38,382 nt of DNA from Robiginitomaculum sp. (GTDB lineage Bacteria > Pseudomonadota > Alphaproteobacteria > Caulobacterales > Maricaulaceae), in contig NVXK01000019.1 of assembly GCA_002733905.1 (NCBI GenBank), positions 37,702 through 76,083 of the forward strand, read 5' to 3'. The notes under the pieces are model-generated. The model did not search any database and had not been told where the DNA came from. It saw nothing but the letters and a program-made list of their open reading frames with translations. The position numbers and the translations under genes were made by a program. This document shows positions 3,180 to 32,532 of the stretch, piece by piece (within the stretch, counting starts at the first letter, position 1; each line of letters opens with the position of its first letter).

Positions 3180-3890
3180 ATGAAAACACTTGTTAAACTA
3201 CAGTGGCAGACAGCCTGCGTAGAAATAATCGTGATGATTTTCGCAGTCATATTTTTAAAGAAAGCATTCGATCCATTTTTCTGGCGGTTTTCAGGCCCGG
3301 CAGCCCTGGCCGTTATCATGGTTGGCTTGACAATTTATCTGCGATTAAGCGGACAAACTTGGGAAGATTTAGGATTGCGGCGCTTGCAAAGCCGAAGAGA
3401 TAAACTCATGCTTATGCCACAAATTTTGCTCACATTTCTAGCAATGTCTGCCGCTCTTGCCCTTGCTCTTTATGGCGGATTAGCACTTGGCCTAACGTTT
3501 ATGGAAGAAATACCACAAGGGGTCGAGGAGAGATGGGGTGATATTAAAGGCAACCTACCACTGTATTTAATATGGGTTATGATATCTTGGGTGATTGCAG
3601 GTTTTTCAGAAGAAATTATTTTTCGTGGTTTCATGATCACGCGCCTAACGACCCTTTTGGGAGGGGCAAAATCTGCGACGTTTTTCGCAGTAATTTTTGC
3701 AGGTATTTTCTTTGGATATTTACATTTTTACAATCAAGGCTATCGCGGATTTATCACAGCGACCCTGATCGGGATCGCATTCGGGGCCATGTTTTTGCTA
3801 TTTAAACGTAATCTCTGGCCGCTTATCTTTGTTCACGGCTGTATTGATACATTAGGATTTACCGTGAGGATGTTGGACTTGGATGTCTAG
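3180..3890 (+). CDS. CPBP family intramembrane metalloprotease (CAAX/Abi type)
   Basis: A 236-residue polytopic membrane protein carrying the three conserved CPBP motifs: EExxxR as E144-E145-x3-R149 (FSEEIIFRGF), an FxxxH-type motif ending at H182 (FGYLH), and a C-terminal HxxxN/D-type motif as H219-x3-D223. These Glu and His residues form the metal site in the family (Rce1, bacterial Abi proteins). Here the last motif ends in Asp rather than the more usual Asn. Bacterial members process or shield against peptides, or act in membrane protein handling; the substrate cannot be told. It stands alone on the + strand, followed by a hairpin shared with convergent fabI. Confidence 0.85.
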   Translation: MKTLVKLQWQTACVEIIVMIFAVIFLKKAFDPFFWRFSGPAALAVIMVGLTIYLRLSGQTWEDLGLRRLQSRRDKLMLMPQILLTFLAMSAALALALYGGLALGLTFMEEIPQGVEERWGDIKGNLPLYLIWVMISWVIAGFSEEIIFRGFMITRLTTLLGGAKSATFFAVIFAGIFFGYLHFYNQGYRGFITATLIGIAFGAMFLLFKRNLWPLIFVHGCIDTLGFTVRMLDLDV

Positions 3891-3895
3891 ATATT

Positions 3896-3935
3896 TTCAA
3901 TTGCCCACTTTTATATTTCAAAGCGGGCAATTGAA
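3896..3935. terminator. Hairpin between convergent CPBP gene and fabI
   Basis: TTCAATTGCCC (3896-3906) pairs perfectly with GGGCAATTGAA (3925-3935), and CTTT/AAAG extends the stem after one mismatch. It lies between two convergent stop codons. There is no clear T-tract on either strand, so it may act as a bidirectional or RNA-stabilising hairpin. Confidence 0.6.
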
Positions 3936-3972
3936 GTATTCATGTGTTCATTACATCTCAAAGGCGTGACGA

Positions 3973-4806
3973 TTAATCAATACCAAGGCTTGCCTTTAAG
4001 GGGCCTTCTTGTGGCATGGCGATGGCATGGAAGCCGCCGTCAACATGGTGGGTTTCGCCCGTGCAACTTGTCCCCAATGAGGAGAGAAGATAAAGCGCGG
4101 CTCCTGCAACGCCTTCAAGTTCTGTATGTTCTTGCATGGCGGCTGCGGCTTTGTTGAATCTAAACATATGGCGACCAGAACCAATGCCAGCTGCGGCGAG
4201 GGTTTTCACAGGCCCAGCAGAGATTGCGTTGACGCGAATGCCGCGTGGGCCAAGATCAGCGGCCATATAGCGCGTACAGGCTTCGAGGGCTGCTTTGGCA
4301 ACACCCATAACATTATAATTTGGTATAACCCGTTCCGCGCCAAGATAGGTCATGGTAATCATAGAGCCACCTGCGCTCATCATTTCTGATGCGCGACGAC
4401 CTGCATCGACAAAGCTATAGGCTGAAATATCAAGCGCAGAAGCAAAACCTTCACGTGTGGTATTGTCGATGAAAGACCCCATAAGCTGTTCTTTGCCTGC
4501 GAAGGCAACAGAATGGACAAGAAAATCAATTTCGCCCCATGCATCTTTCAAAGCTGCAAAACACGCATCCATGCTGGCATCATCTGTCACGTCACAAGGT
4601 ACAATAATGGAAGAGCCAATGCTTTCGGCAAGTGGACGTACACGGCGTTCGAGCGCTTCACCTTGGTAAGTGAACGCAATTTCTGCGCCCTGTGCATGTA
4701 ATTGCTCTGCAATTGCCCACGCAATAGAGTTTTTATTTGCGACACCCATAATAAGTCCGCGTTTGCCTTTCATAAGGCTCCCTGTAGGAAATTCACGTTT
4801 GGCCAT
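3973..4806 (-). CDS. fabI: Enoyl-[acyl-carrier-protein] reductase (NADH), FabI
   Basis: A 277-residue short-chain dehydrogenase-type enzyme that catalyses the last reduction of each fatty-acid elongation cycle. The FabI signature is complete: cofactor loop GVANKNSIAWAIA at 21-33, LVHSVAFAGKEQL near 96-108, and catalytic Tyr154, Tyr164 and Lys171 in YLGAERVIPNYNVMGVAK (E. coli Tyr146, Tyr156, Lys163). The start is the ATG at 4806 with AAGGA 7-11 bases upstream; a longer open frame reaching 4905 adds 33 residues unlike FabI and is rejected. It is divergent from the TerC-family gene and convergent with the CPBP gene. The classical Tyr-x6-Lys spacing argues against FabV or FabL. Confidence 0.96.
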   Translation of the reverse strand: MAKREFPTGSLMKGKRGLIMGVANKNSIAWAIAEQLHAQGAEIAFTYQGEALERRVRPLAESIGSSIIVPCDVTDDASMDACFAALKDAWGEIDFLVHSVAFAGKEQLMGSFIDNTTREGFASALDISAYSFVDAGRRASEMMSAGGSMITMTYLGAERVIPNYNVMGVAKAALEACTRYMAADLGPRGIRVNAISAGPVKTLAAAGIGSGRHMFRFNKAAAAMQEHTELEGVAGAALYLLSSLGTSCTGETHHVDGGFHAIAMPQEGPLKASLGID

Positions 4807-12254: not shown

Positions 12255-12414
12255 AATACGATATTTCTGTTTTCATTTTAACGTCTAAAGCTACTCACGT
12301 AATTGCGCTACATATCTTGGCGCAAATCAATGGATTATTAGCTTTGTGGAAGTCTGAAATAAGAGTGAGAACAGTCAATCTGTTTGCAATGTAAGAATTA
12401 TAGAAATAAATAAT

Positions 12415-13071
12415 ATGCGTATTCTCCTCGTTGAAGACGACCAACAATTCGGACATTCGATTCACAGGGCCATCAAGAGTGAAGGCTATGCGTCGGATTG
12501 GGTGCAAACGTGTGAGGACGCGACAATTGCGATTAACGACGGGCATTTTGATGTTATCATTTTAGATTGGGAACTACCGGATAATCAGGGTACGCAATGG
12601 CTTGAACAAAAAAGGGCGCAAGGCATGGATATCCCAACCTTAATGATGACAGCACGCAGAAGCAGTGCCGATAAAGTCATTGGACTAGATAAAGGTGCCG
12701 ATGATTATGTAACGAAACCATTCGATCTAGATGAATTTTTTGCACGAATACGCGCGTTGTTACGGCGGGGCACTGTCAAGTCATCGCGAATAATCAAAAC
12801 AAAGCATATGGAAATTAACCCAGACACATCAGTTGTTCAGATAAATGAAACAGATATTCTTTTGTCAAAAGCAGAGCTAGATCTACTTGTGATACTCGCA
12901 AATCGTTCGGGGGAATTTGTCTCGAAGCGACACTTAGAGAACGCCTTGTATGATTGGGATAGCGCTGTTACACCGAACGCGATTGAGGTGCAAATCTCCC
13001 GACTTCGTAAAAAAGTCGGGGCCAATTTGATAAAAACACAAAGAAATTTTGGCTATAAACTGGAAAAATAA
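12415..13071 (+). CDS. OmpR-family response regulator (QseB/TctD-like)
   Basis: A 218-residue two-domain regulator. The receiver (1-115) has the acidic pocket E7-D8-D9, phospho-acceptor Asp51 in VIILDWELPD, the conserved Thr in LMMTARR and Lys in YVTKPF. The winged-helix DNA-binding domain (about 125-218) contains LLSKAELDLLVILANRSG, AVTPNAIEVQISRLRKKVG and a C-terminal hairpin GYKLEK. It overlaps the kinase gene by one base (TAATG), so the two form a cognate pair. Targets are unknown; the neighbouring adhesin gene is an obvious candidate. No strong Shine-Dalgarno precedes the ATG. Confidence 0.94.
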   Translation: MRILLVEDDQQFGHSIHRAIKSEGYASDWVQTCEDATIAINDGHFDVIILDWELPDNQGTQWLEQKRAQGMDIPTLMMTARRSSADKVIGLDKGADDYVTKPFDLDEFFARIRALLRRGTVKSSRIIKTKHMEINPDTSVVQINETDILLSKAELDLLVILANRSGEFVSKRHLENALYDWDSAVTPNAIEVQISRLRKKVGANLIKTQRNFGYKLEK

Positions 13072-14429
13072 TGTTTAATTTACGTGTAAAACTTCTCGGC
13101 GTTCTTACACTTCTTTATGTATTGATCACGGCGTGTATTTATCATTACATAAATGCTGACAAAGTGAATAAGATGACGGAGTTTGAATATAATAATTTAG
13201 ACGCCCAAGCAAAAATTATGGGTCAGTGGATCAACAAGCAAGGTGGCTGTACGCAACCTAGTCCAGATTTACATTTCAATGAATTTACTGCTGAATCTTT
13301 TTTTGTCTCTGGTATAGCTTATCGTGTGATTTGTAAAAACAATGGCTTTTCTATAGAGACTTACGCATTCCCCAAATTAGATAATATTGACGGATTTCTT
13401 GATACTTACGAAGATGAAGAAGGGGATGGCTGGTTTGTTTTAGAGCGCAACCTCAATAATGGAAAATTCATAATCGCGCTAAAAGAACGTTCTACTGGTG
13501 TGTGGTTTATAGAGACAAGCACGCTTGTAATGGTGATTTTGATGCCGTTTTTTGTGATGGTCGTTTTGTATTTTTCCATTGCGTTTCTTTTACGCCCGCT
13601 CAACCAATTAACGAATGTAGTTGTTAGCAGCCCAGACACTTTAGAAAATTTAAACGTCGCACCAGAGTTAGCGCAAATAAAGGCAGCTTTTTTAAAACTC
13701 AGAAATGAGCAAACTCATACACTTTCGATAAAAAAAATCGCATTGAAAAACGAACGCAGTTTTACTGCTAACGCTGCCCATGAATTATTAACACCACTCG
13801 CCGCAATTAAAGCCGAAGTTCAATTACAACAACGTTTAACCGAAGACGAAACTTTATATGACGGTTTAAGTGAAATTTTATTACGGGCAAATCGGGCAAT
13901 CAAAACTGTCGACCAATTGATAACATTGGGAAGGTTAGAGCCTGGGCATAAACCAAAAAATATATCGCCAATCAATCTCAACATAATGATAAATGATATT
14001 CTCGACGATTTGCGCCTCGATATTAAAACGCAAAATTTTCAAATAACCACGTCCCTACCACAAGATCATATTATCATAGCTTCCGCGGTATTGATTGACA
14101 CCCTCTTACGTAACCTATTGCAAAATACTATCAATTATACACCGTATGGTAGGGGTATTGAGATAATATCTCGCGAAGAGAACAACGCCATTTACTTGGC
14201 AATTGCAAATGACTGCAATGAGCTTCCAGAATATTTAACAGATCATATTTTTGACCGCTTTGTTCGTGGCCCGCACGAAAGCGAAACGGGTAGCGGTCTT
14301 GGTTTATCGATTGCACAAAAAATTGCATTGGTACACGATACGCAACTCGTACACTCTGTAAGTAAAAATCGAAAATATATAACCTTCTCTATCAGACTGC
14401 CTGATGGCAATGCCGTTGAGGCAGGTTGA
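13071..14429 (+). CDS. Sensor histidine kinase (QseC-like)
   Basis: A 452-residue membrane kinase. Helix 1 is about residues 7-25, a periplasmic sensor of about 120 residues follows, then helix 2 at about 147-174, a short HAMP-like linker, the dimerisation/phosphorylation helix with His237 in FTANAAHELLTPLAAIKAE (the QseC/TctE style), and the ATPase domain with N-box LLRNLLQNTINYTPYG and G2 box GSGLGLSIAQKIA. The G1 box is degenerate: where DxGxG is expected the sequence reads IANDCNELPEYL, lacking both glycines. The F-box DRFVRG is kept. Ligand unknown. The gene starts on the last base of the regulator gene's stop codon. Confidence 0.93.
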   Translation: MFNLRVKLLGVLTLLYVLITACIYHYINADKVNKMTEFEYNNLDAQAKIMGQWINKQGGCTQPSPDLHFNEFTAESFFVSGIAYRVICKNNGFSIETYAFPKLDNIDGFLDTYEDEEGDGWFVLERNLNNGKFIIALKERSTGVWFIETSTLVMVILMPFFVMVVLYFSIAFLLRPLNQLTNVVVSSPDTLENLNVAPELAQIKAAFLKLRNEQTHTLSIKKIALKNERSFTANAAHELLTPLAAIKAEVQLQQRLTEDETLYDGLSEILLRANRAIKTVDQLITLGRLEPGHKPKNISPINLNIMINDILDDLRLDIKTQNFQITTSLPQDHIIIASAVLIDTLLRNLLQNTINYTPYGRGIEIISREENNAIYLAIANDCNELPEYLTDHIFDRFVRGPHESETGSGLGLSIAQKIALVHDTQLVHSVSKNRKYITFSIRLPDGNAVEAG

Positions 14430-14540
14430 AAGTTGAGCTTAAGAAAGCGCGCATTCATTCGTTCAATGTTGTGTAAGCGTACAAGCGATGTGACGGTGGC
14501 GTGTAGAGGGGGCCGTAAATATAATTTACTACCGTTTTGC

Positions 14541-14588
14541 CACTTCCCCCCTATCATGGATAAAATCCATTTTGATAGAGGGGAAGTG
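14541..14588. terminator. Long hairpin between the kinase and flagellin genes
   Basis: CACTTCCCC (14541-14549) pairs with GGGGAAGTG (14580-14588), with further inner pairing CTATC/GATAG and TGGAT/ATCCA around a short loop. It lies between convergent genes and probably ends transcription from both; there is no long T-tract. Confidence 0.65.
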
Positions 14589-14637
14589 CTTAGTCAGTGT
14601 CATTAGACAGTTGGTAAATGCTCAATGAGCACTAAAA

Positions 14638-15885
14638 CTATCTAAAGAGTGTGAGTAGTGATTGTGGTGCTTGGTTAGCGATTGAAAGTGCTTGAACACC
14701 TAATTGTTGCTGAACTTGAAGAGACTGCAAGCGAGCAGAAGCTTCTTCCATGTCCGCATCAACCATTGCGCCAATACCAACCTTCATTGAATCCATTAGT
14801 GAATTCACGAATTCGTCTTGAACTTCAATGCTTTTTTGTGCTGAACCGAATGATGACGCAGCATCAATTGCAGTCGCCAATAACGCATCAATAGCAGCAA
14901 GTGCATCAGTAGCACCTTGAGCCGTTGAAACATCTAAAGTATCAAGAGCGGCAAGACCACCAGCAGCTTTAGCTTCAACAGCGTCAGCAGCTTCAACAGC
15001 AGCAGCTGTAGATTCTGTGGTAATAGTTGTGCCATCACCAAGACTTGTATTACTAAATGTAAGAACTGTATCATTTGTAGATGGATCAGCTTGCGTTACA
15101 AAACTAGCACTTGCACCGGATATACCATCAAGACTAGATGTTAACGCGGCAGCAACCTCAGTGATTGTGTCACCTTCAACAGATGTATAGCTATAGTCAG
15201 TACCATCTACTGTAACTTTAAATTCGTCACCGACGTTAATATCACCAGCATCAAAAGTTACCGTAGCAGTTGCACCATTATTAACGGTACTCCCACTCGC
15301 AACAGCGAAACCAGCATCGCCACTTGACATTGCAGCAGCAGCAGCAGCAGTAACAGCCGCAGCAGCAGTAATCTCTCCGTTTGTTTCTAAGCTAGCTCTA
15401 CCAACATTGATATTTGTCGCGGTAACGCTACCAGAAGAATCACGATCAAGTGAAGCAAGAACATTGATAGAACCCTCACCTTTAATAAGGTTTTGGCCGT
15501 TAAACTGCGCAGCACCAACGATATTATCGATAGATGTTTTAAGAGCAGCAACGTCAGTTTGGATTTTTGAACGATCTACATTTTCTTCTTGAGCAGCAAC
15601 AATTAAACCTTTCATTTCTGTAAGAAGTTCAACAGTTTTTTCAGATGCAGCACGTGCAACACCAACGGTTGCTGAACCAAGGTTCAATGAGTCTGAGATT
15701 TTATCGAAAGAAGCAACGTCTGAAGTCATTACTGTTGAAATCGCATAGATAGCAGCATTGTCTTTCGCATTTGCTACTTTCTTACCAGTTGAGATTTCGT
15801 TTTGTACTTGGTTCATACCTTTGTTGATTCCCCGAAGAGTTTCAAGAGCTACCATAGCACTAGAGTTTGTTAGAATACTGGACAT
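14638..15885 (-). CDS. Flagellin
   Basis: A 415-residue filament protein. The conserved N-terminal D0/D1 helices (about 1-150, SSILTNSSAMVALETL, EISTGKKVANAKDNAAIYAIS) and C-terminal helices (about 345-415, ASARLQSLQVQQQLGVQALS, QSLLTLFR) closely match Rhodobacterales/Hyphomonadaceae-type flagellins. Between them lies a variable part of some 190 residues, rich in Ala, Thr and Ser, with a beta-rich module (about 205-290, FDAGDINVGDEFKVTVDGT). Caulobacter flagellins have about 270 residues and lack most of this, so the filament surface carries an extra domain. No Cys or Trp, as usual. The ribosome site is AAGGG about 11 bases before the ATG. No other flagellar genes are in the window, and no sigma-54 site was seen upstream; a CtrA-like box lies about 200 bp upstream. 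Confidence 0.94.
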   Translation of the reverse strand: MSSILTNSSAMVALETLRGINKGMNQVQNEISTGKKVANAKDNAAIYAISTVMTSDVASFDKISDSLNLGSATVGVARAASEKTVELLTEMKGLIVAAQEENVDRSKIQTDVAALKTSIDNIVGAAQFNGQNLIKGEGSINVLASLDRDSSGSVTATNINVGRASLETNGEITAAAAVTAAAAAAMSSGDAGFAVASGSTVNNGATATVTFDAGDINVGDEFKVTVDGTDYSYTSVEGDTITEVAAALTSSLDGISGASASFVTQADPSTNDTVLTFSNTSLGDGTTITTESTAAAVEAADAVEAKAAGGLAALDTLDVSTAQGATDALAAIDALLATAIDAASSFGSAQKSIEVQDEFVNSLMDSMKVGIGAMVDADMEEASARLQSLQVQQQLGVQALSIANQAPQSLLTLFR

Positions 15886-27414: not shown

Positions 27415-27972
27415 TTATGGTTTACGACGAAGCGACGAGGGCGGCCTGCGGTAAGTTTCTTTAAACACACTATTGAAACGTCGTAATGAGCTGAATCCTG
27501 ATTTTTGTGCAATTTCCCGCAGAGACAAGTCCGTTTCATCAAGCAAGCGTTTCGCCTTTTGTACGCGCATTGTTTTGGCAAATTGGCTAACCGATGTGCC
27601 TGTATATTGCTGAAAAAGACGGTTGAGATGACGGGGGCCAATACCGAGTTTCCCCGCAAAGTCTGTTATGTTCATGCTGTCGAGCACTCCATTTTCGATC
27701 AATGTGATTGCGCGTGTAATTGTTGTTTTTGTACCGTTCCACGCAGGAGAGTTCGGGGTCGTTTCTGGGCGGCATCTTAGGCAAGGGCGATATCCTGCGC
27801 GCTCGCAAGCGGCGGCGCTAATATAGAAGCTTATATTTTTACGCAAAGGGGGATTGGCGGGGCAAATCGGGCGGCAATAAATTCGCGTTGTTTTAACGGC
27901 TGTAAAAAACACACCATCAAAGTCAGTATTGCGTGCAAGACGTGCTGTGTCACAAATATCAAAATCAAGCAT
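27415..27972 (-). CDS. Ada/AdaA-type methylphosphotriester methyltransferase and AraC-type regulator
   Basis: A 185-residue protein. Residues 1-80 match the zinc domain of Ada: Cys33, Cys37, Cys64 and Cys67 keep exactly the spacing of E. coli Ada Cys38/42/69/72, so Cys33 should accept methyl groups from DNA phosphotriesters and switch on DNA binding. Residues about 85-185 form two AraC-type helix-turn-helix motifs (MNITDFAGKLGIGPRHLNRLFQQYTG; SLREIAQKSGFSSLRRFNSVFKE). The O6-guanine methyltransferase and AlkA parts seen in larger fusions are missing; the former is encoded divergently next door. A strong ribosome site (AAAGGAGG) precedes the ATG. It probably activates its own and the divergent gene on alkylation damage. 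Confidence 0.9.
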   Translation of the reverse strand: MLDFDICDTARLARNTDFDGVFFTAVKTTRIYCRPICPANPPLRKNISFYISAAACERAGYRPCLRCRPETTPNSPAWNGTKTTITRAITLIENGVLDSMNITDFAGKLGIGPRHLNRLFQQYTGTSVSQFAKTMRVQKAKRLLDETDLSLREIAQKSGFSSLRRFNSVFKETYRRPPSSLRRKP

Positions 27973-28122
27973 GACGCCTCCTTTCGTGCCGCACCTTACA
28001 TCATGGCCGAGTTCTTTGCCTAGTGAATCACATCATACACGTCCGAATCTAGCGAGTTGGGGCATTGGTGAAATTGGTTAATGTGAGTAGTATGATATTA
28101 AACCTAATATATAAGGATATGT

Positions 28123-28680
28123 ATGGAAGACTTCGCAGCGATTGACAAACATACAGCAGATAAAAAACATGTCTCGAAACGCATCACGCAATATTGTTAT
28201 GTGGACAGTCCAATCGGAAAATTAATGTTGGCAGGATGTGTGCAAGGCCTCCGCATGATAAGTTTTCCTACAGGCCCCCAAATAAAAGACCCCTTAGACG
28301 GATGGACATTGACACCGTCTTGTTTCCCTCAAACTCAACATGAATTGTGTGCGTATTTTGACGGACATCTTCAAGAATTTAAAGCGCCGATATTCTTGGA
28401 GGGTACACACTTTCAAAAGCAAGTCTGGGCGGCGTTACTAAATGTCCCCTATGGTGAATGTGCATCATATGGAGATATCGCCAAAGCAATAGATAATCCG
28501 GGATCTGCCCGTGCTGTTGGCGGCGCGAATAATGCCAATCCTATTCCTATTATTGTGCCTTGCCACAGAATTATTGGCGCCAATAAATCCTTAACGGGAT
28601 TTGGTGGCGGCCTAAATACGAAGAAAGCGCTCCTAAGCCATGAGGCAAAATATGCGGTATTTCCAGATAGATTACTATGA
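28123..28680 (+). CDS. Methylated-DNA--[protein]-cysteine S-methyltransferase (Ogt/AdaB-like)
   Basis: A 185-residue DNA repair protein that removes alkyl groups from O6-guanine onto its own cysteine. Active site IIVPCHRIIGAN with Cys147, preceded by the helix-turn-helix VPYGECASYGDIAKAIDNPGSARAVGGANNANP with the Arg finger, and followed by LTGFGGGLNTKKALLSHE. The N-terminal part (about 1-75) is a divergent, less conserved domain as in Ogt. Ribosome site AAGGA before the ATG at 28123. It is divergent from the Ada-type regulator gene over a 150-bp gap (27973-28122), the presumed shared control region; I found no clear Ada box there. Confidence 0.93.
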   Translation: MEDFAAIDKHTADKKHVSKRITQYCYVDSPIGKLMLAGCVQGLRMISFPTGPQIKDPLDGWTLTPSCFPQTQHELCAYFDGHLQEFKAPIFLEGTHFQKQVWAALLNVPYGECASYGDIAKAIDNPGSARAVGGANNANPIPIIVPCHRIIGANKSLTGFGGGLNTKKALLSHEAKYAVFPDRLL

Positions 28681-28707
28681 ATATAAACTTAAAGGTGCAA
28701 AATATAA

Positions 28708-28722
28708 TTAACCATTGATTAA
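28708..28722 (+). promoter_or_regulatory. CtrA-type box upstream of luxI
   Basis: TTAA (28708-28711), CCATTGA, TTAA (28719-28722); the first half is also the 8-base half-site TTAACCAT. It ends 48 bp before the luxI start, at promoter distance. A third TTAA follows at 28729. Consistent with CtrA control; unproven. Confidence 0.5.
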
Positions 28723-28770
28723 GGCGAGTTAATATCTAAAATACTCCTGTAGGTAGAAAAAGGTGTTGAT

Positions 28771-29418
28771 ATGATACGCATAATTACAAATAAAAATAAA
28801 AATGAAAACATTCAAGCGTTAGAGGACATGTTCAAGCTTAGATATGATGTTGCCGTAACGCAGTGGGGGTGGAATATTCCAGGGGGCAAAAAAGGATATG
28901 ATAAAGACCAGTTTGACCGCGAAGATACGGTGTACTTTCTCGCCTATAATGACGCGGAAGAGATGGTGGGATGTGGACGTTTAAACCCAACACTTAAGCC
29001 TCATTTACTCAGCGAAATATTTGCGGATCAATGCGAAACACATGGTGTGCCGCGTCACAAAAATATATGGGAATTTTCACGTTTTATGGTGGATGGCCGT
29101 AACCAAACACATACCCAGCAAGTGCAAACAAATTTAGAACTTTGCTTGGCAGTGACAGAGTATAGCGTCGCGCATAAAATTGAAAAATTATCATGGCTCG
29201 CCTATGCTTCCATGTATACAAAATCAGTTGTCCTTTGGAAAACCGAAGCTCTAGGCGCGGTGAAATATTATGAAGATGATGACGCAAGCTATCGTGCCGC
29301 CCTCATCGAAACGACGCCAGAATCTGTAAAACGTATCCAAAGGTTTTTAAACCGCAAACGTCGCAAACCGATTGTAAGCATTCAACACGGAGAGGTTACA
29401 CATGACATCATTGCTTGA
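28771..29418 (+). CDS. Acyl-homoserine-lactone synthase (LuxI family)
   Basis: A 215-residue autoinducer synthase that joins an acyl group (from acyl-ACP or acyl-CoA) to S-adenosylmethionine. Nearly all invariant residues are at or near their classical positions: Arg24, Trp34, Asp46, Asp49, Arg70 (GCGRLNP), Phe84 (SEIF), Glu101 and Arg104 (WEFSRF). The classical Phe28 is Ala here (RYDVA for RYxVF), near the SAM/acyl site, so this is a divergent LuxI. The C-terminal half (GAVKYYEDDDASYRAALIE) is family-like; the acyl chain cannot be predicted. Ribosome site AAAGGTG before the ATG. It overlaps the next gene by 17 bp. No luxR-type receptor gene is within the window. Confidence 0.9.
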   Translation: MIRIITNKNKNENIQALEDMFKLRYDVAVTQWGWNIPGGKKGYDKDQFDREDTVYFLAYNDAEEMVGCGRLNPTLKPHLLSEIFADQCETHGVPRHKNIWEFSRFMVDGRNQTHTQQVQTNLELCLAVTEYSVAHKIEKLSWLAYASMYTKSVVLWKTEALGAVKYYEDDDASYRAALIETTPESVKRIQRFLNRKRRKPIVSIQHGEVTHDIIA

Positions 29419-30418
29419 GAATCTTACGCCAACTCTTAACGAAGACGTGGCGATGCAATATGAGAAAGACGGTTTCTTACATTTAAAAAACGTCTTAACA
29501 CCGGAACAAGTTGAGGGACTGCGACAAGTAGTAAGTGCCCAGATTAAAATGCTCCCCACTTCGGAAACGGCCTATGATTTTGAAAAGCTGGCAGAACAAA
29601 TGTGGGCGGGTGAAGATGATATAGGGGCGGGACATGCTGACCGTTTTGACCTCGAACTTTACAAAGCGATGATCGATCATGACGAAGCTGCACGCCCGAT
29701 GCTGGAACGCCCTAATCGTAAATGCGATAAAGAAGGCCAGTTCTTTTATGACGCGGCGGGCTGGCGGCTCTATGAATCTGTACGCAATGTTGCCTTTGAT
29801 TCTGCATTGCCTGAACTATGCGCGCAATTACTTAGCACCCAATATCTCAATTTTTGGGAAGACACTACATTTGTCAAAGCTCCGAACACCATGCAAAAAA
29901 CGGTGTTCCACCAAGACTATGCATATTTCCAAATCCGCGGGTCTAAATGCTGTATTGTTTGGATACCACTTGATCCTGCAACGAAAGAAAATGGGACAAT
30001 GCAGTATATTCGTGGTTCGCATTTGTGGAATGAAACTTATGCTCCTAACTTATTTATCACGCAAACCACTATGCTCGACGCAGAAGATCCAAAACTACCA
30101 GATATAGAAAACAACCTTGAAAAATACGATATAGTTACCGTAGAAGCCAATCCAGGGGATGTGATTATACACAATGTCATGACGGTGCATGGCTCTGGCG
30201 GTAATATGTCAAAAGATCAAAACCGACGTGCCATGTCATTTCGGTATTGCGGTGATGATATCACCTATTATGACCGCCCTGGGGCAATCCCACAGCCGTA
30301 TATTTCACAAAATTTGGATGATGGTGCGCCGCTCTATAGCAAGGATTATCCGCTCGTCTGGCCAAAGCCTTTTCCAGAGGCCAAGATTGCACCATTGTTT
30401 GCACAACAAAATATCTAA
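29402..30418 (+). CDS. Phytanoyl-CoA dioxygenase (PhyH) family protein
   Basis: A 338-residue Fe(II)/2-oxoglutarate-dependent oxygenase. The metal triad is visible: His170 and Asp172 in VFHQDYAYF, and His263 in VHGSGGN, with Arg275/Arg276 (QNRRAMSFRY) for 2-oxoglutarate. The core double-stranded helix spans about 150-285; the N-terminal EKDGFLHLKNVLTPEQV is the usual PhyH opening. Family members hydroxylate fatty acyl-CoAs and many other substrates. The gene starts within the end of luxI (17-bp overlap), with its own ribosome site GGAGAGG, so both are made from one message; the enzyme may therefore act on an acyl-homoserine lactone, its acyl precursor or another fatty substrate. A strong terminator follows. 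Confidence 0.88.
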   Translation: MTSLLENLTPTLNEDVAMQYEKDGFLHLKNVLTPEQVEGLRQVVSAQIKMLPTSETAYDFEKLAEQMWAGEDDIGAGHADRFDLELYKAMIDHDEAARPMLERPNRKCDKEGQFFYDAAGWRLYESVRNVAFDSALPELCAQLLSTQYLNFWEDTTFVKAPNTMQKTVFHQDYAYFQIRGSKCCIVWIPLDPATKENGTMQYIRGSHLWNETYAPNLFITQTTMLDAEDPKLPDIENNLEKYDIVTVEANPGDVIIHNVMTVHGSGGNMSKDQNRRAMSFRYCGDDITYYDRPGAIPQPYISQNLDDGAPLYSKDYPLVWPKPFPEAKIAPLFAQQNI

Positions 30419-30444
30419 TGCTTAAGCGCTAAATTCAAGACATA

Positions 30445-30479
30445 AAAAAACCCGCCACATTGTTTGTAGCGGGTTTTTT
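30445..30479. terminator. Bidirectional rho-independent terminator
   Basis: AAAAAACCCGC (30445-30455) pairs with GCGGGTTTTTT (30469-30479), giving a GC-rich stem with T-tract on the + strand and, by symmetry, on the - strand. It ends the luxI-phyH message and convergent hppA. Confidence 0.93.
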
Positions 30480-30498
30480 CTTATCTAATTTTCACAGC

Positions 30499-32532
30499 CT
30501 AGAATATGCCATTAATTGTTAAGAGTGGTGCAATCACCAAGCTAACGATTGCCATCACATTGATAAGGATATTCATAGCGGGGCCAGACGTATCTTTGAA
30601 CGGGTCGCCAACAGTATCGCCAACGACAACGGCCGTATGTACATCTGTACCTTTGCCGCCGAAATTACCTTTTTCAACATATTTTTTAGCATTGTCCCAA
30701 GCACCACCTGCATTCGCCATGAACAAAGCCATAAGCACACAGGCGAGAAGTGCACCTGCGAGGAAACCGCCAAGCGCTTCTGCACCGAGGAGGAAGCCTA
30801 CGAGTGGCGGCACACCAACGGCGATCACACCAGGTAGCAACATTTTCTTCAAAGCTGCTGTCGTTGCAATGTCGATACACTTTTCTGTATCTGGATCGGC
30901 TGTACCTTCAAGCAGGCCAGGGATTTCTTTAAATTGACGACGGATTTCGGTAATCATTTCCATCGCCGCATCTCCAACGGCTGTCATGGTAATGGCGGAG
31001 ATTAAGAACGGAATTGTACCGCCAATAAACATGCCGACAAGCACCATTGGGTTTGCAAGGTCGAGGTTAAACGTTGGGTTATGTGCTTTCACAGTTTCGC
31101 CAAACGCTGCGATAATCGCAAGAGCAGCAAGTGCAGCCGCACCAATGGCAAAACCTTTGCCGATAGCCGCTGTCGTATTGCCAAGCTCGTCTAGGCCGTC
31201 CGTGATTTCACGCACTTCTTTGCCCATACCACCCATTTCTGCAATGCCGCCTGCATTATCTGCAACGGGGCCATATGCATCAATGGCCATGGTAATACCA
31301 ACTGTGGCCAACATACCAACCGCCGCAATACCTACACCGTAAAGACCTGCGAGTTCTGTCGAAGCAAAGATAATGGCTGCAATGACCAAGATCGGCATAA
31401 CAACAGATTGCATGCCAACAGCAAGGCCTGTGATCATAACGGTCGCAGGGCCTGTCTCGCCAGACTTGGCAATTTTACGTACGGGAGAACCGCCCGTATA
31501 ATATTCAGTAATGAGGCCAATCGCAACACCACCAGCGGCACCGCAAACAACAGCCCACCAGTATTTCACATCAATGCCCATATATTGAACAAGGAAGTAG
31601 GCCGCCGCAAGAAAAATCACGGGTGCGCCAAGCGTGCCTGTACGAAGTGCCGCTGCTGGCGCTGCACCAGCGCGAAGCTTCACCACACCAATCATCAGGA
31701 TTGACGCCACAAGACCGATTGTCGCAAGCGCGAGAGGTAAGAACATAAGCTCTGGACTTTTCATCGTTGCCGCGATTGCAATTGACGCAATCATCGCCCC
31801 GCAATAGCTTTCAAAAATATCGGAACCCATGCCAGCAACGTCGCCAACATTATCACCGACATTATCCGCGATTACACCGGGGTTGCGCGGGTCGTCTTCT
31901 GGGATACCTGCTTCAAGCTTGCCCACAAGGTCAGCGCCAATATCAGCAGACTTGGTAAAGATGCCGCCACCAATACGCGAGAACAAAGCCACACATGACG
32001 CGCCCATGCCGAAGCCTTCAAGCGCGTGAACATTATGTGTAAGATGTGCTGCGCTGTCAGCTGTCCATGCACCGCCTAAACCAAAGAAGTAGAATAAACC
32101 GCCAAGACCGATAAGACCAAGCGCCGCAACACAAAGCCCCATGATAGAGCCGCCAAAAAAGGCAACCGTCAACGCACTTGCCGCGCCGTTTTGTTGCGCC
32201 GCAGTTGCGGTACGTACATTGGCTTTCGTCGCCGCGAACATGCCGAGCCAACCTGCAATCGAGGAGGACACCGCCCCAACAATAACCGCAAGCGCCGTAT
32301 CTTTACCAAGGGCAAAGAACACAATCACGATAAGAATGATAAGAAAAACCGCGAGCATTTTATACTCACGTTTCATAAAGACCATTGCGCCTAAATGAAT
32401 TTGGTCACCAATTTTTTTGATGGCGTCATCGCCCTCAGGATATTTTTTCACGATTAAATAAAGCACAAATGCGCAAATAAGACCCACTGCACCCACAATA
32501 AGTGGCAGTGTAGTTAGTTCGGATACGGACAT
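30499..32532 (-). CDS. hppA: Membrane-bound ion-translocating pyrophosphatase
   Basis: A 677-residue polytopic membrane protein that couples pyrophosphate hydrolysis to ion pumping. Substrate and metal motifs are intact: [21 protein letters not shown] and [18 protein letters not shown] near 196-234, [18 protein letters not shown] near 410-427, and the C-terminal [19 protein letters not shown] near 640-658. The key sequence [11 protein letters not shown] has Ala where potassium-independent enzymes have Lys, placing it in the K+-dependent class; whether it pumps H+ or Na+ cannot be read safely. Ribosome site GGGGGAA before the ATG. A full CtrA-type box lies 30 bp upstream. A soluble pyrophosphatase gene is 2.5 kb away. 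Confidence 0.95.

Follow-up and report, generated by a model that had tools for sequence, protein, structure and literature searches.

Here, we describe a two-gene unit in an alphaproteobacterial draft genome in which luxI overlaps a downstream phyH gene and for which no cognate LuxR receptor domain was detected. The pair lies between ogt and hppA in the 38,382-nucleotide stretch of Robiginitomaculum sp. DNA that was analysed (the window). We tentatively propose, at a probability somewhat short of even, that PhyH oxidises the LuxI product or its acyl donor, and that the pair is the receptor-less core of a hyphomonad operon ('hyphomonad' being a label that we infer for the lineage of the window). 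The features on which the argument draws are as follows.

27415..27972, minus strand: AdaA-like regulator (Ada_Zn_binding and AraC HTH), divergent from ogt.
28123..28680, plus strand: ogt, O6-methylguanine-DNA methyltransferase; borders the insertion on the left and could be a source of read-through.
28681..28770, plus strand: AT-rich leader of 90 bp from ogt to luxI, with no luxR match, lux-box-like dyad or listed terminator-like site.
28708..28722, plus strand: TTAACCATTGATTAA, a CtrA-type full site in the luxI leader, 48 bp 5' of the luxI ATG.
28715..28742, plus strand: weak sigma-70-like pair TTGATT-N16-TAAAAT (9/12 matches), its first hexamer overlapping the CtrA-type site.
28771..29418, plus strand: luxI, AHL-synthase-family protein of 215 aa (PF00765, E 1.7e-20).
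29402..30418, plus strand: phyH, PhyH-superfamily Fe(II)/2-oxoglutarate oxygenase of 338 aa (PF05721, E 2.2e-33).
30445..30479, plus strand: terminator-like hairpin before the hppA stop (folded, and compared with relatives by eye).
30499..32532, minus strand: hppA-like membrane pyrophosphatase (assigned by eye from the sequence), which borders the insertion on the right.

An earlier description made from the DNA alone, hereafter the sequence-only reading, had drawn attention to a 17-bp overlap of the two genes and to a ribosome site for each; the coordinates (28771-29418 and 29402-30418) bear out the overlap, and a purine-rich, ribosome-site-like stretch is visible by eye before each gene. The pair occurs as a single copy in its own draft genome, which comprises 3.48 Mb in 43 contigs at 96.9% completeness.

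Adjacency of luxI and phyH in relatives, named by the sequence-only reading as a check on its proposal, was preserved wherever it could be read. A scan of one genome per species (84,980 species), which used a two-row PhyH alignment and two exact peptides and reaches close relatives only, returned 17 loci from Hyphomonas, Hyphomonadaceae, Robiginitomaculum, Hellea, Caulobacterales and MAGs labelled Alphaproteobacteria or Rhodobacterales. luxR, luxI and phyH are consecutive on one strand in 16 of these loci; the 17th (L040) starts at a contig end 139 bp 5' of the phyH match, and its upstream region is unreadable. When 137 genomes from the family of the window were searched with a profile (E <=1e-60), six contained the PhyH subfamily, namely the window's own genome, those of L038, L039, L040 and L053, and that of a new locus, L092, which has the order luxR-luxI-phyH with a small gene, orfX, before phyH. 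luxI lies directly 5' of the PhyH gene on the same strand in all 18 readable loci (16 scanned loci, L092 and the window; orfX stands between in four), a count that includes two pairs that look like near-copies (L041/L042 and L050/L051) and that applies to this subfamily, distant PhyH relatives (<=38% identity) occurring in other genomes. The reverse search, with LuxI, gave a match in 11 of 61 genomes, its own included. No match to the window PhyH was found in ten more distant LuxI loci (L006-L015, flanks up to 1.5 kb), nor in the 18.6-kb and 19-kb stretches around the two closest LuxI loci (L032, L033), in which luxR is present. Judged from these sequences, dependence looks one-way: this PhyH goes with luxI, and luxI does not in turn go with PhyH.

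At the sequence level, both proteins look constrained and show no signs of decay. LuxI passes the curated cut-off of PF00765 (73.8 bits versus 24) and retains R24, W34, D46, D49, R70, E101 and R104 (14-row alignment and 34-row comparison). In 39 columns that are invariant among the other rows it has three changes, P160A, P164V and I175R, none of them catalytic, and the other rows have 0 to 4 private changes each (14 LuxI rows). The comparable count for PhyH is one private change in 102 otherwise invariant columns, with 0 to 7 in the other rows (16 PhyH rows). The LuxI, PhyH and LuxR alignments (A2-A5) were made without L042, L051 and L054; A2 also lacks L052, the LuxI alignments A4 and A5 lack L043, and L092, found later, is in none of them.

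Residue 28 of the window LuxI is Ala in place of the family's Phe28, a residue termed absolutely conserved in PMC3704786, and this counts against the proposed AHL chemistry. The substitution is shared within the lineage: in 34 rows, residue 28 is A, V or C in 18/18 hyphomonad LuxI proteins and F or Y in 13 of the 16 others. The LuxI proteins of L006/L032 and L007/L033 and the 18 hyphomonad rows form a subgroup with a small or aliphatic residue at this position. A tie between the missing Phe28 and the presence of PhyH was considered and rejected, because the LuxI of L006/L032 has Ala28 without a PhyH match nearby. The AlphaFold2 (AF2) model of LuxI (pLDDT 79) is closest to the CoA-dependent AHL synthases MesI and BjaI, followed by RpaI and TofI. 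BjaI, MesI and RpaI are the closest solved folds; they are 23-28% identical to the window LuxI and differ from it at Ala28. The predicted likeness to CoA-dependent synthases would suit an oxygenase partner acting on acyl-CoA.

The His170/Asp172/His263 triad of PhyH, which the sequence-only reading had called intact, is correctly placed and is invariant in 15/15 rows of the PhyH alignment, window included. The same applies to R275/R276, which we take to be the 2-oxoglutarate arginine. The AF2 model (mean pLDDT 80) most resembles MysH, followed by SnoK/SnoN; human phytanoyl-CoA 2-hydroxylase (2a1x) is only at Foldseek rank 26. MysH, the Fe/2-oxoglutarate oxygenase of mycosporine biosynthesis, is also the best phmmer match (E 6.8e-33) and hence the closest solved relative by both sequence and fold, although identity in the structural alignment is 25%. 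The substrates of MysH are mycosporine amino acids, not acyl chains, which argues against an acyl substrate for the window enzyme. The MysH substrate cannot be carried over to the window PhyH. A Nostoc relative adjoins D-Ala-ligase-like, O-methyltransferase and 3-dehydroquinate-synthase genes, without luxI.

The missing luxR, which had passed unremarked in the sequence-only reading, sets the window apart from its relatives. PF03472, the autoinducer-binding domain, has no match in the window's own draft genome, and a 12-row LuxR profile matched two stretches of that genome in the HTH part only. No relic of luxR was found in the window by tblastn with the LuxR of L053 (E 1e-3). The draft genome thus contains no detected cognate LuxR receptor domain and no recognisable LuxR/LuxI circuit; a LuxR gene could be missing from a 43-contig draft at 96.9% completeness, which weighs against a receptor-less reading. 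The presumed binding site is absent as well. By eye, a CCCC-N4..6-GGGG dyad precedes luxI in 16 relatives (clear in 13, degenerate in L041, L042 and L052), and its place and symmetry suggest a lux box; no lux-box-like dyad was seen by eye in the window leader.

Two further genes accompany the operon in the family. Upstream DNA is readable in five family-level loci, of which four (L038, L039, L053 and L092) have the arrangement luxR-luxI-orfX-phyH and the fifth is the window; in L039, L053 and L092 a P450-like gene follows phyH (one was checked against Pfam). A search for a P450 partner elsewhere in the window's own genome gave only a 28% partial match. The small protein encoded by orfX has a conserved S-I-(L/M)-(D/N)-D motif and gave no Pfam match (L038, L053) and no NCBIfam match (L053). 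orfX is absent from the window and from 9/9 Hyphomonas-type loci checked, and in those nine loci luxI and phyH overlap or abut (hand-entered coordinates). The four copies of orfX are located as follows.

L053, 5752-6000: orfX.
L038, 5727-6017: orfX.
L039, 5733-5999: orfX.
L092, about 3721-4032 (reverse complement): orfX.

The position of the pair in the genome points to an insertion. hppA is present in 13/13 same-genus relatives and ogt lies <=1.5 kb from its 3' end in nine of them, and luxI or phyH was found beside hppA in none of the 13, within flanks that were partly ended by contig ends. In L069, L074 and L082 the convergent ogt and hppA are separated by a gap of about 50-75 bp holding one hairpin, and several other relatives (e.g. 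L070, L072, L073 and L078) have another open frame between the two genes. In the window, luxI-phyH is placed between the ogt stop and the hairpin, at a site that is empty in close relatives. What the sequence-only reading had called a strong terminator after phyH is indeed a terminator-like hairpin (30436-30486 folds at -18.9 kcal/mol, z -6.2). It is, however, part of the older ogt/hppA locus rather than of the pair, because relatives that lack luxI-phyH show hairpins, judged by eye, at the corresponding position. A foreign base composition of the insert was not seen: GC3 is 0.39 for luxI and 0.41 for phyH, within the 0.37-0.45 of the neighbours. The pair may have arrived without luxR or may have lost luxR afterwards. 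A misjoin of luxI-phyH into the ogt-hppA gap during assembly is very improbable. The draft is fragmented (43 contigs), the pair is single-copy and none of the 13 relatives has it here within the flanks examined, all as a misjoin would predict, but the borders fall in the very gap that is about 50-75 bp long in three relatives, both genes and the hairpin are unharmed, and GC3 matches the surroundings. Next to the insertion, Ada functions appear to be divided between the divergent AdaA-like regulator and ogt (window 27415-28680).

A luxI gene beside phyH, as the sequence-only reading noted, is on record for sphingomonads (PMC3704786, PMC4288048, PMC5012321). Novosphingobium subterraneum carries three novI genes, all in the order novR-novI-phyH (PMC5012321), and we found luxR-luxI-phyH operons in plasmid loci of Novosphingobium, Sphingomonas, Sphingobium, Blastomonas and Variovorax. 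The Sphingomonadaceae operons resemble the hyphomonad ones in encoding a PhyH-superfamily oxygenase and in their one-strand luxR-luxI-phyH order (5/6 plasmid loci; the sixth lacks an intact luxR), with a luxI/phyH overlap of 4 bp in 4/6 annotations. They differ in that luxR is normally present, in contrast to the window, and in that Phe28 is kept in 6/6 LuxI proteins whereas the window has Ala28. The PhyH proteins of the six luxI-linked plasmid loci are 24-32% identical to that of the window and branch apart from it in the tree. We nevertheless do not claim that luxI recruited PhyH twice independently, once in sphingomonads and once in hyphomonads: the tree separates the groups, but one common clade of their luxI-linked PhyH was not rejected by an AU test (p 0.165; 40-row tree minus the long-branch rows L022, L023, L025, L027 and L028).

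Receptor-less arrangements have precedents. A luxI solo with phyH was described in Sphingobium sp. KK2 (PMC4288048), and plasmid pCHQ1 of Sphingobium indicum UT26S (L096 1603-2941) has luxI-phyH preceded, on the opposite strand, by a short sigma-70-region-4-like gene and not by an intact luxR; pCHQ1 is a parallel case of a stranded luxI-phyH pair. These Sphingobium loci share with the window a luxI-phyH without an adjacent intact luxR. The luxI-solo genomes in Table 3 of PMC4288048, however, all also list a canonical or double-luxR luxI unit, in contrast to the window's draft genome with no LuxR receptor domain. In Actinomycetota, luxI genomes without an autoinducer-binding LuxR are reported, which have a solitary luxI and HTH-only LuxR-family proteins like the window's genome (PMC13136126). 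They belong to another phylum, and the excerpted text of that paper mentions some luxI genes near monooxygenase genes but not PhyH. Several features are new compared with the excerpts of these papers: the hyphomonad subfamily, the occurrence of luxI-phyH in a LuxR-less genome, a CtrA-type site replacing the dyad, and the P450, orfX and lasso-peptide neighbours.

We propose that luxI-phyH in the window may be the surviving core of a hyphomonad luxR-luxI-phyH operon that came to lie between ogt and hppA with its receptor gone. LuxI and PhyH would be translated as an overlapping pair. LuxI would couple an acyl group to the homoserine-lactone moiety of S-adenosylmethionine, and PhyH would then oxidise the LuxI product, going further than the 3-hydroxyl group that LuxI can acquire with its substrate; alternatively, PhyH might oxidise the acyl-CoA/ACP that feeds LuxI. 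An action of PhyH on the LuxI product or acyl donor is favoured because of the one-way dependence across the 18 readable loci, the retention without luxR of exactly these two constrained genes, and the P450-like gene after phyH in three relatives, as expected of a tailoring pathway. Because no LuxR receptor domain was detected in the genome, no classical autoinduction is proposed for this cell; the product might leave the cell to serve others as a signal or metabolite, or a receptor outside the LuxR family might sense it. A local promoter, perhaps tuned by CtrA, or ogt read-through could drive expression.

That the oxygenase alters the signal or its precursor, as suggested by the sequence-only reading, is still the best reading, with the conserved adjacency in its favour, but plain 3-hydroxylation would not require PhyH. 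Two of the three plasmids listed as carrying each a novI of N. subterraneum gave OH-substituted AHLs in Agrobacterium, mainly C8-OH and C10-OH (PMC5012321), so a hydroxylated signal needs no PhyH there. If LuxI alone gives OH-AHLs, PhyH would contribute a further modification or use a different molecule as substrate. The reaction of the PhyH beside luxI is termed 'yet-to-be described' in the same source, and no product of the hyphomonad PhyH subfamily appeared in the open-licence PMC literature, covered mostly as listings. Because of the Novosphingobium result, we moved weight towards an alternative in which PhyH is a quorum-sensing output gene that shares the luxI promoter and has a substrate unrelated to the LuxI product, the window copy being a stranded remnant. 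Earlier authors suggested a quorum-regulated phyH operon gene (reported in PMC3704786 and PMC5012321), and lasso-peptide and other genes vary around the operon. We nevertheless regard this alternative as possible but unlikely: luxI and phyH were kept without luxR and without signs of decay, which is unexpected for an unrelated output, and a PhyH of this subfamily without luxI was never found where upstream DNA was readable.

Returning to the action of PhyH on the LuxI product or acyl donor, the window offers a naturally occurring minimal pair that lacks receptor, lux box, orfX and P450 and in which the role of PhyH beside luxI is directly testable. If this reading is true, such products could escape surveys that depend on LuxR biosensors or standard AHL masses, and the pair would be a natural case of a signal synthase retained after its receptor has gone.

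The TTAACCATTGATTAA box is located where the sequence-only reading placed it, at 28708-28722 and 48 bp ahead of the luxI ATG, and presumably fits the CtrA consensus. Links between CtrA and quorum sensing in roseobacters, likewise mentioned there, are known from the literature. TTAA-N7-TTAA occurs in 1.85% of shuffles of the 90-bp leader, which places the box weakly beyond chance. CtrA might bind it and drive or time luxI-phyH in place of LuxR, rewiring the pair to the cell cycle. The full site overlaps a possible -35, and the 13 relatives examined all lack TTAA-N7-TTAA, both in the luxR-luxI interval and over the 300 bp that precede luxR. The window holds five such sites (1437, 9123, 16083, 28708 and 32563), compared with a mean of 1.44 in whole-window shuffles (2/100 reach five), and all five are intergenic against 0.60 expected (P 0.0015), a result that depends on a gene list made by hand. 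The genome also encodes the N-terminus of CtrA (90% identical over 67 residues to a typed Caulobacter-type query). Against these points, the stricter motif TTAACC-N5-TTAA is not enriched genome-wide (10 versus 21 for the reversed control), the chance of a site in the leader is 1.85%, and no full site was found in 3.2 kb around ctrA itself, a stretch containing N bases. The claim of the sequence-only reading that output follows the cell cycle therefore holds only weakly: the CtrA gene and the overlap with a weak promoter-like -35 favour it, but the absence of the site from the 13 relatives and the lack of enrichment of the strict motif do not. For these two reasons CtrA control was demoted from main explanation to rival; on sequence grounds it is possible but unproven, and we consider rewiring of the pair to the cell cycle rather doubtful. 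Sigma-70-like pairs number 10 in the region, compared with 7.1 expected from shuffles. Elsewhere in the window, one TTAA-N7-TTAA site precedes a flagellin-like gene (14638-15885, minus strand, by eye) by about 200 bp, and another precedes hppA by about 30 bp.

Control from the other border, overlooked by the sequence-only reading, is conceivable too. Because a hairpin is found after phyH and none is listed between ogt and luxI, ogt could read into luxI, which would make the pair part of the alkylation-damage (Ada) response. ogt ends 90 bp before luxI on the same strand and the intervening leader has no listed terminator-like site, the hairpin that trails ogt in relatives stands after phyH in the window, and the AdaA-like regulator is divergent from ogt. 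The AT-rich leader, however, holds a promoter-like and a CtrA-like site, and the arrangement is seen in no relative that was read, and we judge read-through improbable. Similarly improbable, in our estimate, is a complete departure from quorum sensing, in which the pair would form a two-gene pathway for an oxidised acyl-homoserine-lactone metabolite and control would have moved from LuxR and the lux box to CtrA or the ogt/Ada promoter.

In Hyphomonas, a lasso-peptide cluster lies divergently beside luxR-luxI-phyH, upstream of luxR (L041, L042, L044-L052 and L054). ORF cluster c4, whose L047 member is a lasso B2 protein, occurs in 11/17 loci, and c3 (TPR/LicD-like) in 12/17. The cluster beside the operon in most Hyphomonas loci counts against an acyl substrate, as PhyH could act on something else. 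PhyH as a general lasso-peptide tailoring enzyme is unlikely, as the window and 4/16 readable loci (L038, L039, L043 and L053) are without those clusters; for Hyphomonas itself, PhyH might have such a role. On a Sphingomonas paeninsulae plasmid (L095 4657-6813), luxR-luxI-phyH-GntR is followed by a benenodin-family lasso peptide, a B2 protein and an asparagine-synthetase-like gene, and lasso peptides may repeatedly have come under quorum control. In the sister genome G006 (L031, about 12278-14678), ATPase-like and TraG/VirD4-like frames were seen by eye after the luxR-luxI-orfX-phyH-P450 operon, hinting at a mobile region around it.
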